Source: Parcubacteria group bacterium Gr01-1014_29
GTDB lineage: Bacteria; Patescibacteriota; Minisyncoccia; Ryanbacterales; 2-02-FULL-48-12
Length of the DNA stretch: 34,255 nt
Direction of reading: 5' to 3'
Assembly (NCBI GenBank): GCA_007376195.1
Contig: VMFT01000013.1
Coordinates: forward strand, 1 to 34,255
The notes under the pieces were generated by a model. It saw only the letters and a program-made list of their open reading frames with translations. It was not told the DNA's origin and searched no databases. Positions 4,512 to 33,739 of the stretch are shown here, in pieces. Numbering within the stretch: position 1 is the first letter of the stretch; every line of letters begins with the position of its first letter. Both the position numbers and the translations under genes were made by a program.

Positions 4512-6690
<2,179 letters not shown>

Positions 6691-6707: not shown

Positions 6708-7007
6708 ATGATAACGAAACATGACATTCAAAAACTTGCTATCCTTGCCCGCATTGACGTTTCAGACACAGAGGTTGAACATCTTCAGCGCGACTTGGAG
6801 CGTGTTTTGGGGTATGTAGAAAAGCTGAATCAGGCGGAAACAGGCGCCGTAGATCCGCTTACGCATGTGTTGGGGAGCGTAAACGTAACACGTTCTGACA
6901 ATGAGAGTAGCTCTCGGTATGAGTATGGTGGTGTACTCGTTGAAGCCGCCCCGCAACATAAAGACGGATATGTAGCTGTGCGATCGATATGGAATGGCAA
7001 GCGATGA
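6708..7007 (+). CDS. gatC: Asp-tRNA(Asn)/Glu-tRNA(Gln) amidotransferase subunit C
   Basis: GatC is the small subunit that holds GatA and GatB together in the amidotransferase which converts Glu-tRNA(Gln) and/or Asp-tRNA(Asn) to the amide form. ATG 6708 is chosen; the in-frame TTG at 6702 would add two residues. The 99-residue protein has the family pattern: I.KLA.LARI..S..E...L..DL..VLGYVEKLN near the N-terminus and a conserved end (VEAAPQHKDGYVAVRSIW, compare 'aP....g.f.vP.v'). Its TGA stop overlaps the ATG of gatA in ATGA, so translation is coupled. gatB is not in this window. Confidence 0.93.
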   Translation: MITKHDIQKLAILARIDVSDTEVEHLQRDLERVLGYVEKLNQAETGAVDPLTHVLGSVNVTRSDNESSSRYEYGGVLVEAAPQHKDGYVAVRSIWNGKR

Positions 7008-8401
7008 CAATACGGCAGGCGCGCGATATGATTGCGCGTCGCGAGACAACAGTGCATGATCTTACGGATCATGCCCTTAAAGCCATACGCACGCATGATG
7101 GCGCCATTCATGCTTTTTTGGATGTGTATGAAGAAGAACTGACTAGACACTCGGTGTCTAGTCAGTTTGGTATTGAAGGTGCACTGCTTGCAGGCATACC
7201 TATCGCAATAAAAGACAATATTCTCATTGCAGGTAAGAAAGCAACTGCTGGCTCAAAAATGCTCGAAACATATGAGGCCGCGTATGATGCTACGGTCATT
7301 ACAAAACTGAAAGAGGCGGGGGCTGTGTTTATAGGAAAGACAAATATGGATGAGTTCGCGATGGGGTCCTCTACCGAGAACTCGGCGTTTGGCCCCACGA
7401 AAAATCCGCATGATCCCGCGCGCGTGCCGGGCGGGTCCTCGGGTGGGTCGGCGGCGGCGGTGGCGGCTGGCGAATGCATCGCGGCCTTGGGGTCTGACAC
7501 GGGCGGTTCTATTAGACAGCCAGCGGCGTTTTGCGGTGTGGTGGGGTTAAAGCCAACCTATGGCGCGGTATCCAGAAATGGGCTTATTGCCATGGCTTCT
7601 TCTCTTGATGTCATTGGTCCCATTACAAAGACCGTGGAGGACGCGGAAATTATGTTTAACGTTATAAAAGGAAAAGATCCGTTGGATTCCACAACTGTTG
7701 AATTACATAACATGGAACATGGAGCATGGAACAAAGAGAAAAAACTTAGGATCGGGGTACCGAAGGAATATTTTGGTGAAGGATTGCATCCAGAAGTAAA
7801 ACAGGCTGTCGAAGCCGCTTTAAAAATGCTTCATGATTCAGGATTCAGGATTCATGATATTAGTTTGCCTCATTCCGACTACGCACTTGCCGCGTACTAT
7901 ATTATTATGCCAGCGGAAATTTCGGCGAATCTCGCGCGACTTGACGGCATTCGCTATGGTCTTTCAAAGGATGCCGATGATCTATTAGGGGTGTATATGA
8001 AATCGCGCCGCGCGGGGTTTGGCGCAGAAGTGCGCCGCCGGATTATATTGGGAACATATGTGCTTTCCGCGGGGTATTACGACGCGTATTACACGAAAGC
8101 GCAACAAGTGCGCTCGCTCATAAAGCGTGATTTTGAAAAAGCATTTGAGGAAGTGGATGTGATTGTGTCTCCCACCACACCAACGCCTGCGTTTAAGTTC
8201 GGCGAAAAATCAAACGATCCCGTTGAAATGTATCTCTCTGATATTTACACGGTGTCCGCAAACCTCGCAGGCATTCCCGCGCTTTCCGTTCCATGCGGCG
8301 TCTCAAAAGACGGGCTTCCCATCGGCATCCAATTCATGGGGCGGTGGTTTGAGGAGGAAATATTATTTGAAGTTGGGAAGGAGGTGGAGAAGATGATATA
8401 A
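7004..8401 (+). CDS. gatA: Asp-tRNA(Asn)/Glu-tRNA(Gln) amidotransferase subunit A
   Basis: GatA is the glutaminase subunit (amidase-signature family). The start ATG 7004 overlaps the gatC stop. The Ser-cisSer-Lys triad is visible as K70 (AIKDN), S145 (GGSSGGS) and S169 (DTGGSI). Its spacing (75 and 24 residues) equals that recalled for Staphylococcus aureus GatA (K79, S154, S178). The protein has 465 residues. Residues 45-55 (ELTRHSVSSQF), just before the catalytic domain core, are coded by a copy of the palindrome that flanks the RAYT gene at 13.6-14.4 kb. Two heptamer repeats lie at residues about 236-245 and 276-285. The reading frame is intact, so the gene is probably functional despite these insertions. 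Confidence 0.97.
   Translation: MTIRQARDMIARRETTVHDLTDHALKAIRTHDGAIHAFLDVYEEELTRHSVSSQFGIEGALLAGIPIAIKDNILIAGKKATAGSKMLETYEAAYDATVITKLKEAGAVFIGKTNMDEFAMGSSTENSAFGPTKNPHDPARVPGGSSGGSAAAVAAGECIAALGSDTGGSIRQPAAFCGVVGLKPTYGAVSRNGLIAMASSLDVIGPITKTVEDAEIMFNVIKGKDPLDSTTVELHNMEHGAWNKEKKLRIGVPKEYFGEGLHPEVKQAVEAALKMLHDSGFRIHDISLPHSDYALAAYYIIMPAEISANLARLDGIRYGLSKDADDLLGVYMKSRRAGFGAEVRRRIILGTYVLSAGYYDAYYTKAQQVRSLIKRDFEKAFEEVDVIVSPTTPTPAFKFGEKSNDPVEMYLSDIYTVSANLAGIPALSVPCGVSKDGLPIGIQFMGRWFEEEILFEVGKEVEKMI
7137..7167. repeat. RAYT-type palindrome inside gatA
   Basis: Arms AACTGACTAGACAC (7137-7150) and its complement (7154-7167) enclose the loop TCG. Arms and loop are the same as in the intergenic copy at 13299-13331, and the arms match the two copies flanking the RAYT transposase. 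Here the element is translated as part of GatA. Confidence 0.95.
7710..7737 (+). repeat. Heptamer tandem repeat in gatA (1)
   Basis: Units ACATGGA, ACATGGA, GCATGGA and the diverged ACAAAGA follow each other. They code about HNMEHGAWNKE, in a surface-loop-like stretch before KLRIGVPKEYF. The element is in frame. Confidence 0.7.
7831..7858 (+). repeat. Heptamer tandem repeat in gatA (2)
   Basis: Four units TCATGAT, TCAGGAT, TCAGGAT, TCATGAT cover exactly 28 nt and code HDSGFRIHDI. It has the same unit length and copy number as the repeats in ligA and dnaG but a different unit sequence. Confidence 0.7.
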
Positions 8402-12526: not shown

Positions 12527-13261
12527 ATGAACACGAATAATAAAATAATCTGGGGGGTTGTGGGGGTGATGGTGCTTGTTGCAGGCGCGTGGCTGTTTTT
12601 TCGCAATAAAAAAGAACCCGCAGCTAAACCGCTTGCCGAAAAAGCGGTCGGTGTGCACTACGCGGGCGGTGGGGTTCATGTGGTGGAAGGAACAGTCGCG
12701 CTGCCAAATCCTTGTTATGCGCTGTCAGTTGCGGTGGAGAAGCGGGGGTCAAGCCCCGAAAAGGTATTGCTGCGTTTTACCGCAACGCCAACGGCGGATG
12801 TCTGTGCCGAGGTGATATACAGCGCGCCGTTTCGGGCAACATTTGATGCCGCCGACAATGCCGAGCTTTCGGCAACAATCAATGACATCCCCATAGCGCT
12901 TGATCTTGAGCCGAGAGCGCGTGTAAGTGCTGATGCGAGAAGCATTTTTTCGCTTACACAAGGGGAAGAGCGATGGGTGGAAGACATGCTTATTACGTTT
13001 ACCGGGGTGGAAGACGATAGCCGGTGTCCGGTGGATGTTGTGTGTGTACAGGCTGGTTGGGTAACTCTTCGGTTCCTGGCGGGTGGTGAAGAAATCCTTC
13101 TTCGTTTGCCCGGAGATTCAACTGTGCCAAATGCCTTGGTGGTGGGGAGTTATATTATTACACTTGTAAATGTTGAACCGCCAGCGAGGTCGGACAAATC
13201 ACTAGAATCTCTCCTATATTCGGCAACACTTCGCGTAGAACTACACGATACGAAAGGATAG
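12527..13261 (+). CDS. Membrane-anchored protein of unknown function
   Basis: The 244-residue protein has an N-terminal membrane helix (IIWGVVGVMVLVAGAWLFF) and a basic stop-transfer sequence. A first beta-rich part (residues about 40-125) has two Cys. A second part (about 140-235) contains LITFTGVEDDSRCPVDVVC followed by VQAGWVTLRF, a pattern ('DSRCP..V.C...G') found in an uncharacterised family of bacterial lipoproteins, and a final repeated-strand pattern (IITLVNVEP ... ATLRVEL). Exported and probably Ca-independent adhesion/structural; no catalytic residues are recognised. It follows the cupredoxin gene closely. No Shine-Dalgarno sequence is seen. Confidence 0.75.
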   Translation: MNTNNKIIWGVVGVMVLVAGAWLFFRNKKEPAAKPLAEKAVGVHYAGGGVHVVEGTVALPNPCYALSVAVEKRGSSPEKVLLRFTATPTADVCAEVIYSAPFRATFDAADNAELSATINDIPIALDLEPRARVSADARSIFSLTQGEERWVEDMLITFTGVEDDSRCPVDVVCVQAGWVTLRFLAGGEEILLRLPGDSTVPNALVVGSYIITLVNVEPPARSDKSLESLLYSATLRVELHDTKG

Positions 13262-13298: not shown

Positions 13299-13331
13299 CA
13301 ACTGACTAGACACTCGGTGTCTAGTCAGTTG
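13299..13331. repeat. RAYT-type palindrome, copy B
   Basis: Arms CAACTGACTAGACAC (13299-13313) and complement (13317-13331), loop TCG. Intergenic. Loop and arms match the gatA copy, i.e. the opposite orientation to the two copies flanking the RAYT gene (loop CGA). Confidence 0.95.
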
Positions 13332-13414
13332 AGGGTTTTGTATAGATTCAACTTGTAAAGACAAACTTTTTGTGCTTTTCTAACAGAGAATTTGCTTGTT
13401 GAAAGGAGTGTCCC

Positions 13415-13552
13415 ATGCCGAAAAAAATTACCCGGCCGAGAGAAAAAAAGCAGAAACAAAAGAAAGTCACAAGATACTCGCACGAGAAGCTGGGGAAAAA
13501 GGTGAAAGATACGGAGAAAATACGTCGGTTTATAGATAGTTGGGGAAACTAA
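13415..13552 (+). CDS. Small basic protein, 45 aa
   Basis: The ORF begins at ATG 13415, preceded by a strong Shine-Dalgarno sequence (GAAAGGAG, spacing 7 from its last G), which is rare in this window. It codes a lysine-rich protein that starts MPKKITRPREKKQKQKK and ends with KIRRFIDSWGN. There are no hydrophobic segments. The positive charge suggests binding to nucleic acid, but no family is recognised. It has its own terminator at 13581-13605 and lies between two RAYT palindromes (copies B and C), so it may belong to the accessory segment. Confidence 0.6.
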   Translation: MPKKITRPREKKQKQKKVTRYSHEKLGKKVKDTEKIRRFIDSWGN

Positions 13553-13580
13553 GAACTTTGTTCCAAGCAAAGAGTTACAA

Positions 13581-13605
13581 ACGGGAGAAATCTCGTTTTT
13601 CTTTT
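13581..13605 (+). terminator. Terminator after the 45-aa gene
   Basis: ACGGGA-GAAA-TCTCGT stem (one wobble) with a tetraloop, followed by TTTTCTTTTC. It ends the short transcript 29 nt after the stop codon. Confidence 0.6.
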
Positions 13606-13615
13606 CCAAAAACTA

Positions 13616-13650
13616 CCAACTGACTAGACACCGAGTGTCTAGTCAGTTGG
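13616..13650. repeat. RAYT-type palindrome, copy C (3' flank of RAYT gene)
   Basis: The longest copy: 16-nt arms CCAACTGACTAGACAC (13616-13631) and complement (13635-13650), loop CGA. It touches the end of the transposase gene, whose stop codon is at 13643-13645 inside the right arm. Confidence 0.95.
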
Positions 13651-14320
13651 TGTCGGTTTCAATAAAATGATCATTATCCAAAATATCTTTTGTTCCGCTG
13701 GTTTTTACAAAATCTGCATACTCACGTTGATTCTCATATTGTTCAAGGATTATTTGCGGATTGAGGAGATTGCCCCAACGGTTATTTTTGATATAGTCTT
13801 GGTAGCTTGACCACAGATATTTTTCTTCTTTGGCATGCCATTTTCGCAATTCGTTCGGATTTCTATGTATATATGCCGACAAATGGAGAAGTTGTTCATT
13901 GTCGGCAATATGTACGGCATGGAAGGGGCCTTGAAAAAGATGACCGATCATTTGATATTTTGTATTGAATGATTTTGTATACGCATCCTGTACGCGTTGC
14001 ATATATCGTGAAATGCCGTTAGGAGTGCGTTCATGTACAACAAGATGAAAGTGGTTCGGCATAAGCGCAAAAGCAACAAGTTCTGCAATCTTGTTTTTTG
14101 TAATTTCTTGTATCGTACTTTTCGTAGCGCCGAATGAGCCTTTTCGTAGAAATGCCGATACACTACGGCTTATGTTGTAGATAGTAAATGGTGCTTGGAA
14201 GAAAAGAACAAGAAAGAGGAATCGAGCGTAATCAGCTTCGGAGAAAAAAATCTCTTTTTTGTGATTGCCGCGATTATAAATATGATAATATTCTCCCTCA
14301 GTAAACTGTAGTTTTCTCAT
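13643..14320 (-). CDS. REP-associated tyrosine transposase (RAYT, IS200/IS605-like)
   Basis: The 225-residue protein is a Y1 HUH single-strand DNA nuclease of the RAYT (TnpA-REP) type. It starts with the family signature GEYYHIYNRGNHKKEIFF. The HUH motif is H90-F91-H92 in LMPNHFHLVVHE. The candidate nucleophile is Y114 in MQRVQDAYTKSFNTKY, and the conserved GHLFQGPFHAVHI and LHLSAYIHRNP segments follow. RAYTs cut and join single-stranded DNA at REP palindromes. Here palindromes lie immediately on both sides of the gene (13616-13650 and 14333-14363), and three more copies lie in the window, one inside gatA. All motifs are present, so the enzyme is probably active. The start codon lies 7 nt after a -10 box, with no Shine-Dalgarno sequence. 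Confidence 0.95.
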   Translation of the reverse strand: MRKLQFTEGEYYHIYNRGNHKKEIFFSEADYARFLFLVLFFQAPFTIYNISRSVSAFLRKGSFGATKSTIQEITKNKIAELVAFALMPNHFHLVVHERTPNGISRYMQRVQDAYTKSFNTKYQMIGHLFQGPFHAVHIADNEQLLHLSAYIHRNPNELRKWHAKEEKYLWSSYQDYIKNNRWGNLLNPQIILEQYENQREYADFVKTSGTKDILDNDHFIETDTN

Positions 14321-14327
14321 ACTGTTC

Positions 14328-14356
14328 AGTATAACTGACTAGACACCGAGTGTCTA
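14328..14356 (-). promoter_or_regulatory. RAYT promoter partly formed by the palindrome
   Basis: On the minus strand, TATACT (14333-14328) lies 7 nt before the RAYT start codon. Exactly 17 nt upstream is TAGACA (14356-14351), which is inside the flanking palindrome and differs from the TTGACA consensus at one base. Confidence 0.55.
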
Positions 14357-14363
14357 GTCAGTT
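14333..14363. repeat. RAYT-type palindrome, copy D (5' flank of RAYT gene)
   Basis: 14-nt arms AACTGACTAGACAC and complement with loop CGA, followed by TGGTGAGACA, a tail shared with copy E. It lies 13 nt upstream of the transposase start codon. Confidence 0.95.
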
Positions 14364-14454
14364 GGTGAGACAATAAAAAAATTAATGCGCAATGTTGACA
14401 TGCCGTTTTCTTTTTGCTTAGGTGGTTTCTATAGCCGTTGAAAAATAAAAAGCA

Positions 14455-14487
14455 CAACTGACTAGACACTGAGTGTCTAGTCAGTTG
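14455..14487. repeat. RAYT-type palindrome, copy E
   Basis: 15-nt arms CAACTGACTAGACAC and complement, loop TGA, followed by GTGAGACA as after copy D. Intergenic, between the RAYT gene and the candidate structured RNA. Confidence 0.95.
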
Positions 14488-14489
14488 GT

Positions 14490-14613
14490 GAGACAGATGT
14501 GGAAAAACAAAACTCGGGCAAGGATGCTAAACTTCGTCTCTCTGATGAAAATCGGGGAGATTTCCCCCTCGGTTTAGCATCCCTGTCTGTGCTTCAAGTT
14601 TTCCACACCTTAT
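14490..14613 (-). ncRNA. Candidate structured small RNA
   Basis: An extended -10 box TGG-TATACT on the minus strand (14627-14619) would start a transcript near 14612. The transcript folds into a rod: an outer stem (TGTGGAAAA at 14498-14506 with 14599-14607), a large internal bubble (about 13 and 15 nt), a perfect 11-bp stem (GGATGCTAAAC at 14522-14532 with 14572-14582) and a tip hairpin GGGGA-GATT-TCCCC. This closing stem / open bubble / apical stem shape is like 6S RNA, but the length (about 115-120 nt) is short and no sequence motif confirms it. No T-tract terminator is seen at its 3' end. Confidence 0.4.
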
Positions 14614-33498: not shown

Positions 33499-33595
33499 TC
33501 CGGTGTAGCTCAATGGTAGAGTCCGCCCAAGGCGGATTAAGGCGTTGGTTGTAGGTTCTGCGCCAGAGGCGCATCAGCCTCTGGCTGAGAATCCT
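33499..33595 (+). pseudogene. Split tRNA-Asn copy with palindrome insertions
   Basis: It matches the intact tRNA-Asn (33629-33700) through the D-arm, then TCCGCC-CAA-GGCGGA (33522-33536) replaces 10 bases of the anticodon arm including the first anticodon base. TTAAGGCGTTGG ... GTAGGTTC continues the tRNA. Two 15-nt palindromes (TGCGCC-AGA-GGCGCA and TCAGCC-TCT-GGCTGA, 33559-33588) are then inserted exactly between TTC and GAAT of the T-loop. GAATCCT follows and the 3' acceptor strand is missing. It cannot make a normal tRNA. Confidence 0.9.
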
Positions 33596-33628
33596 CTTAT
33601 AAAATAATATCAAAGTAAAGCCTTGGGC

Positions 33629-33700
33629 TCCGGTGTAGCTCAATGGTAGAGCAGCGCCCTGTTAAGGCGTTGGTTGTAGGTTCGAATCCTACCGCCGGAG
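33629..33700 (+). tRNA. tRNA-Asn (GTT)
   Basis: Acceptor TCCGGTG pairs with CGCCGGA (one G-T); anticodon arm GCGCC-CTGTTAA-GGCGT with anticodon GTT; T-arm GTAGG-TTCGAAT-CCTAC; discriminator G. CCA is not encoded. It is flanked by a split copy upstream and a 3' fragment downstream. The link to gatCA in the same window is worth noting, because Asn-tRNA may be made by transamidation. Confidence 0.96.
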
Positions 33701-33739
33701 CTTAGGGCTTTATTGCATTCTTACAAATTTGCAAAGACT

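Follow-up and report, generated by a model that had tools for sequence, protein, structure and literature searches.

A RAYT-type transposase and its probable cognate palindrome in a Paceibacteria genome, with related palindromes in place of resident coding sequence

The stretch of DNA analysed here (34,255 nucleotides, referred to as the window) carries the gene for a RAYT-type Y1/HUH transposase in a genome of the Candidate Phyla Radiation (Paceibacteria/Parcubacteria-type), along with copies of a short and almost invariant palindrome that recurs throughout that genome. Gene and palindrome probably constitute a REPtron-like pair, in which the RAYT recognises the palindrome as a hairpin and mobilises it. 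The spread of REPs has still to be explained, and the literature searched yields no reconstructed case of RAYT-driven movement. Paceibacteria contain dozens of RAYT-palindrome pairs, each diverged independently. Since the pairs carry no tag and are small and perfectly symmetric, their recognition code is readable by covariation; in addition, pairs of genomes with and without a given palindrome are open to comparison. Several of the individual traits are known already, namely untagged palindromes (subclass 2.6), REPs inside RAYT genes (subclass 2.4) and in-frame palindromes (REPs and RPEs) (PMC6006769, PMC3733652). Literature searches on RAYTs or such palindromes in Patescibacteria or Parcubacteria found no report.

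The window gene encodes a RAYT-type transposase

An earlier note on this DNA had assigned the gene at positions 13643 to 14320 to the RAYTs (Y1/HUH REP-associated tyrosine transposases), an assignment that is borne out by the open reading frame, which lies on the minus strand and encodes 225 amino acids, and by profiles, motifs and fold alike. The Pfam profile Y1_Tnp matches the protein at 5.6e-11, and REP_Tyr_transpos is the best NCBIfam family at 44 bits, a score below its cut-off of 80 bits, with IS200 at only 15.9 bits. The HUH motif reads N89-H-F-H92, the catalytic-type Tyr150 lies within YIHRNP, and a conserved W170-S-S is also present; His90, His92, Tyr150 and Asn154 are unchanged across 33 homologs. 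Tyrosine motifs of the YxxxNP type are characteristic of class 2 (RAYT), as opposed to YxxxQ in class 1 (PMC6006769).

The AlphaFold2 model of the protein has a mean pLDDT of 93, and its best PDB match is 4er8 (TM 0.68, on target), the E. coli TnpA-REP (RAYT) bound to a REP hairpin, with the IS608 and ISDra2 transposases ranking behind. As in other RAYTs, a Y1/HUH fold is thus combined with an HUH motif and a Y-x-x-x-N-P catalytic-tyrosine motif, and a gene of low copy number (here a single copy) is accompanied by flanking palindromes that are dispersed elsewhere (17 in total). Pfam detected no HTH domain in the protein.

The palindrome is perfectly symmetric and dispersed

The core of the palindrome measures 31 nt, AACTGACTAGACAC-NNN-GTGTCTAGTCAGTT, and consists of two 14-nt arms and a 3-nt loop. 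One copy (13618 to 13648, plus strand, loop CGA) sits at the 3′ end of the RAYT gene, where its arms reach 17 bp (13615 to 13651) and where it supplies the RAYT stop codon (aac-TGA), and another (14333 to 14363, plus strand, loop CGA) lies upstream of the start codon. Two further copies are found at 13300 to 13330 (minus strand, loop TCG on the plus strand), 38 nt past the stop of the open reading frame 12527-13261, and at 14456 to 14486 (plus strand, loop TGA), the latter and the copy at 14333 having the 3′ flank TTGGTGAGACA in common. These are the four palindromes that the earlier note had described, and they lie where it had placed them; their arms are identical over 14 nt in all four, and the plus-strand loops, TCG, CGA, CGA and TGA by position, form the set that it had listed in another order. 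A fifth copy, absent from that note, occupies positions 7137 to 7167 (minus strand) inside gatA, where it is in frame and reads ELTRHSVSSQF. Just past the last of the four palindromes, at 14526-14586, the inverted repeat GGATGCTAAAC...GTTTAGCATCC looks like an ordinary hairpin, and a partial repeat of the tRNA-Asn gene, at 33499-33701, precedes that gene by 130 bp; ARAGORN calls the downstream one only.

Full copies number 17 across the 52 contigs (1.08 Mb) of the window's genome; the arms are perfect in 16 and carry a single mismatch in the other. Copies with two or three arm mismatches are absent from this genome, and the reversed-pattern control gave zero. The recurrence of a 31-mer with perfect 14-bp symmetry far exceeds chance, and the palindrome is plainly present elsewhere in the genome, the absence of which would have spoken against the earlier note. 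The copies show almost no divergence from one another, which is consistent with its suggestion of recent activity; arm-to-arm correction or selection could equally yield this pattern. The palindrome occurs in none of 187 related genomes, even when three mismatches are allowed, and no exact match was found in the GTDB r220 contigs, a set that may leave out the window's own genome. Rfam gave no family at gathering score in the region, only sub-threshold chance matches.

Pairing beyond the 14-bp arm exceeds chance, with a 15th pair in 13 of the 17 copies (P=2e-5) and, given the 15th, a 16th pair in 8 of 13 (P=0.007); likewise, in 18 of 45 RAYT loci the first position past the shared core holds two or more kinds of complementary pair. 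Hairpin-templated synthesis of the arms was considered as a source of this copy-specific outer pairing and was set back, since the 15th pairs are mostly C-G and could simply belong to a longer element; the outer pairing stays a hint. At two composite sites (C8:4466-4514 and C34:31227-31279, by contig) there is one extra tandem arm (for example, GTGTCTAGTCAGTT twice), and these extra arms resemble slippage or the re-copying of one arm.

Palindromes cluster at gene 3′ ends and can be translated

In the window's genome, four open reading frames terminate within a palindrome by means of its TGA or TAG, those of D-Ala-D-Ala ligase, a Mur ligase, an S1-domain protein and an FAD-linked oxidase, and the stop codons of RecA, RuvC, an M23 peptidase, an NYN-domain protein and an Fe-S assembly protein lie within about 20 nt of one. 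The element thus resembles REPs in being 20 to 40 nt long (31 nt), dispersed (17 copies) and situated mainly outside genes or at their 3′ ends.

Two copies are translated through in frame, in GatA (ELTRHSVSSQF) and in KsgA (KLTRHRVSSQF). The palindrome has stops in two of its three frames, and the frame used in both proteins is therefore the sole open one. The gatA gene (6989 to 8401, plus strand) encodes amidotransferase subunit A (Pfam Amidase, 7e-154) and has homologs in 16 relatives. Because the window's genome is the only member of its genus among those compared, both copies were assessed against protein homologs. In GatA, the palindrome stands in for a variable segment and the protein is 4-5 codons shorter there than most homologs; the region of KsgA around its 31-nt palindrome exceeds that of the three closest homologs by 3-5 codons.

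Three RAYTs of the genome have different palindromes

The window's genome encodes three RAYTs, each with a different palindrome, and the other two Y1 genes clearly differ from the window RAYT, one being 55% identical and one having other palindromes. The palindrome of the window RAYT (ACTGACTAGACAC) accounts for the 17 copies genome-wide; that of the RAYT on contig C43 (TGTTCGAAAC) has five, one inside the gene, one just upstream and three elsewhere; and that of the RAYT on contig C4 (CCGGAAGT/CCGGATGT) has eight, six of which lie before, inside and after the gene within about 1.3 kb. Two tandem palindromes of this last family, CCGGAAGT-NNN-ACTTCCGG, occur in the window at 4868 to 4912 (plus strand), within the open reading frame of ligA (4531-6690), which encodes an NAD-dependent DNA ligase. 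A fourth palindrome, TGTTAAACAC-NNN-GTGTTTAACA, has nine copies on contigs C1, C5, C9, C14, C22, C26 and C41 of this assembly, none of which adjoins a RAYT; this orphan family is possibly the trace of a lost RAYT.

RAYTs and palindromes diverge together across relatives

In a set of 188 genomes, comprising the window's genome and 187 relatives, a RAYT homolog is present in 108, and the hosts of such homologs include the Nomurabacteria, Zambryskibacteria, Vogelbacteria and Giovannonibacteria of the Candidate Phyla Radiation. A survey of 91 RAYT loci, mostly from other Paceibacteria, scored perfect palindromes with a 3-nt loop. Such a palindrome lies 20-60 nt before the RAYT start at 50 of the 91 loci (about 55%) and 0-45 nt after the stop at 53 (about 58%), and intragenic palindromes occur at two fixed sites, near codon 60 (24/91) and near codon 153 (13/91). 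Loci shuffled at constant composition gave 0.0-0.15 palindromes at those positions, and under a strict criterion 25 of the 91 loci had no assignable palindrome. The codon-60 palindromes were considered as recent insertions, a reading that was rejected because RAYTs with and without the palindrome are of the same length at that site and because it encodes a conserved F-V-K-x-x-x-F-N segment.

The palindrome core is common to the copies within one RAYT locus and differs from locus to locus. Over 66 loci, with palindrome-coding columns masked, arm distance tracks RAYT protein distance (Mantel r=0.61, 0/9999 permutations). This correlation shows that arms and RAYT are inherited together and diverge in parallel, and is not by itself proof of recognition.

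In its generic form, TGTNNAAC-N7-GTTNNACA, the palindrome has 203 copies in the 188 genomes, 198 of them in genomes that encode a RAYT homolog and the other five in genomes lacking one. At least two copies are found in 23 of the genomes that encode such a homolog and in none of the others (Fisher P=9e-7), and of two genomes from the same genus, G097, which has RAYTs, contains 25 generic copies and G031, which has no RAYT, contains one; these counts and association tests are uncorrected for phylogeny. The palindrome is thus far from being equally frequent in relatives that lack a RAYT, the outcome that the earlier note had named as decisive against it, and the linkage of RAYT and palindrome across loci, together with the 17 copies in this genome, upholds its view of the palindrome as the cognate repeat of a RAYT in a Candidate Phyla Radiation genome.

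Two further observations concern individual relatives. The 0.5-Mb genome G040 has 32 generic palindrome copies and only a distant RAYT homolog. In one genus, the loci L053 (G097) and L038 (G118) hold a RAYT at the same syntenic place between flanking DNA that is 68-78% identical, and despite these similar flanks both the RAYT protein and the palindrome are strongly unlike, which may reflect either fast evolution or the replacement of a RAYT together with its palindrome.

Palindromes stand in place of resident coding sequence in G097

Occupied and unoccupied sites were compared at the DNA level for five gene pairs of G097 and G031, which are about 80% identical and belong to a related genus. 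In three of the five, the palindrome is found in place of resident sequence, with net changes of 0, 0 and -3 nt and with conserved sequence on either side. In the phosphoribosyltransferase gene, the G097 palindrome aligns without gaps to non-palindromic sequence in both G031 and G075; in the gene for a MurD-like ligase, a second palindrome substitutes at equal length (0 nt net), beside a net gain of 21 nt within which another palindrome lies; and the net change in murG is -3 nt. The remaining two, an MBL-fold gene (+27 nt net) and uvrA (+48 nt net), show net insertions, and in both a second palindrome of another family lies beside the first. All five G097 copies share one reading frame (VQH[LQ]VL), though this palindrome is open in all three.

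Two other features were seen in G097. About 770 bp downstream of the 3′ end of the phosphoribosyltransferase gene lies a duplicate of that end (C4:95289 and 96058, corresponding to L180:1501 and 2270), and this duplicate starts at the palindrome. Another palindrome family, around GGACCG[CA]CCTTC-NNN, occurs at L301, L302, L314 and L330, one copy directly adjoining the RAYT-type palindrome in uvrA.

Proposed mechanism and rival explanations

We infer that the RAYT binds, cleaves and mobilises the hairpin, and that replacement may take place in one step. Most likely, the RAYT would bind the 31-nt palindrome once this is exposed as a single-stranded hairpin, and would nick at or near the hairpin foot through Tyr150. 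Copies would then be transferred to other places that are single-stranded, such as replication gaps or the lagging-strand template, and would survive best just past stop codons, or within genes where they are in frame and give a tolerable peptide. Replacement in one step could come about if, for instance, a replication gap were patched with the hairpin strand.

The window gene might instead belong to an ordinary insertion sequence of the IS200/IS605 type, with the flanking palindromes as its terminal hairpins and the dispersed ones as remnants of excised or degraded copies. It is true that the Y1 fold is common to the IS608 and ISDra2 TnpA proteins and that IS200/IS605 elements likewise have hairpins at both ends, but the window RAYT is single-copy in a genome that contains no near-identical multiple transposase copies, and the dispersed palindromes of this genome are bare hairpins with unrelated DNA right outside the core and no gene remnants. 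Since the Y motif, YIHRNP (YxxxNP), is also not the class 1 YxxxQ (PMC6006769) and NCBIfam ranks RAYT over IS200, we regard this origin as improbable. A similarly low probability attaches to the palindrome being a cellular site, whether a 3′-end RNA hairpin, a terminator or the site of a dimeric protein, that is kept by selection and merely used by the RAYT. The many copies at gene 3′ ends, four of them with open reading frames ending inside, and the above-chance pairing of the outer bases (15th pair in 13/17, P=2e-5) would suit such a site; yet the palindrome sequence is unique to the window's genome although the genes are conserved, copies lie inside gatA and ksgA too, the palindrome families change in step with the RAYT, and no Rfam family reaches the gathering score in the region.

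For the G097 replacements, a quite conceivable account, if one short of probable, is ordinary insertion followed by the loss of resident bases under selection for protein length or frame, without any overwriting mechanism. REPs and RPEs are known to insert into genes in frame (PMC3733652), the copy in the G097 MBL-fold gene goes with a net +27 nt, and, at about 80% identity between the genomes compared, there was time for trimming. On the other hand, a bare insertion of 23 or 31 nt would immediately shift the frame of essential genes (murG, the Mur ligase, gatA), and three of the G097 cases stand at 0, 0 and -3 nt with both sides conserved. We also put forward, tentatively and as a rather doubtful possibility, that RAYT-borne palindromes spread by overwriting, in which the hairpin strand would be copied or patched into a single-stranded target and replace a stretch of similar length with no frameshift. 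The cases are too few to separate replacement in one step from insertion and then trimming. If overwriting is true, mobile elements would have a way of spreading other than transposition by insertion, and essential genes in very reduced genomes an unusual route of mutation, by which conserved proteins would acquire new peptide segments.

Comparison with known systems

Judged by sequence, the REPtron-like pair of the window appears to work as a REPtron does, with an enzyme that has the core features of a RAYT and palindromes that are neither canonical GTAG REPs nor BIMEs/REPINs. Known RAYTs use a GTAG guide (PMC8266576), and a GT[AG]G foot is present at the 5′ foot of the hairpin in 0 of the 17 copies in the window's genome and in 0 of 101 RAYT-flanking palindromes. 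The copies are also single, not units of two inverted REPs as in BIMEs/REPINs, with an extra partial arm only at the C8 and C34 sites. Because the foot is missing and because each element is one perfect palindrome instead of a pair of inverted REPs, they fall outside the canonical REP/BIME class to which the earlier note had linked them.

In the REPtrons of gammaproteobacteria (E. coli, Stenotrophomonas; PMC8266576, PMC2817692, PMC3733652), a Y1 RAYT likewise lies between its own palindromes, solo copies are dispersed with a bias toward gene 3′ ends, and a REP is able to supply a stop codon; the REP-Sm of S. maltophilia is similarly a perfect palindrome with a 3-nt loop. Unlike REPtrons, which have hundreds of copies, the pair described here has about 17, with 14-bp arms and no GT[AG]G foot; its hairpins are single instead of arranged in BIME/REPIN pairs, and many of the RAYT genes surveyed carry palindromes at two fixed internal sites.

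Among the TnpA-Y1 subclasses (PMC6006769), subclass 2.6 (RAYT group 5, Bacteroidetes) shares with the present loci untagged, atypical flanking structures with copies elsewhere in the genome and, in a comparison by motifs only, a YIH[QN]NP-type motif. The window RAYT comes from a different phylum, and its key motifs are NHFH, FQ and YIHRNP. On the same basis of motifs, the window RAYT resembles subclass 2.1 (RAYT group 1, TIRYT) in NH[YF]H, FQ, Y[IV]H-NP and a post-core SS; that subclass is, however, reported to have a C-terminal HTH and no REP-like sequences near the gene, whereas here there are cognate palindromes and no HTH by Pfam. In subclass 2.4 (RAYT group 4), REPs occur within tnpA-REP genes with the frame intact, as they do here, but between the HUH and Y motifs; of the internal sites of the present palindromes, the one near codon 60 precedes HUH and the one near codon 153 coincides with or follows Y, and a GTAG double foot is absent. 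Finally, the Rickettsia palindromic elements (RPEs; cited in PMC3733652) also lie in frame within conserved genes; they are described as insertions, whereas here a cognate RAYT accompanies the palindromes, several of which stand in for resident codons.
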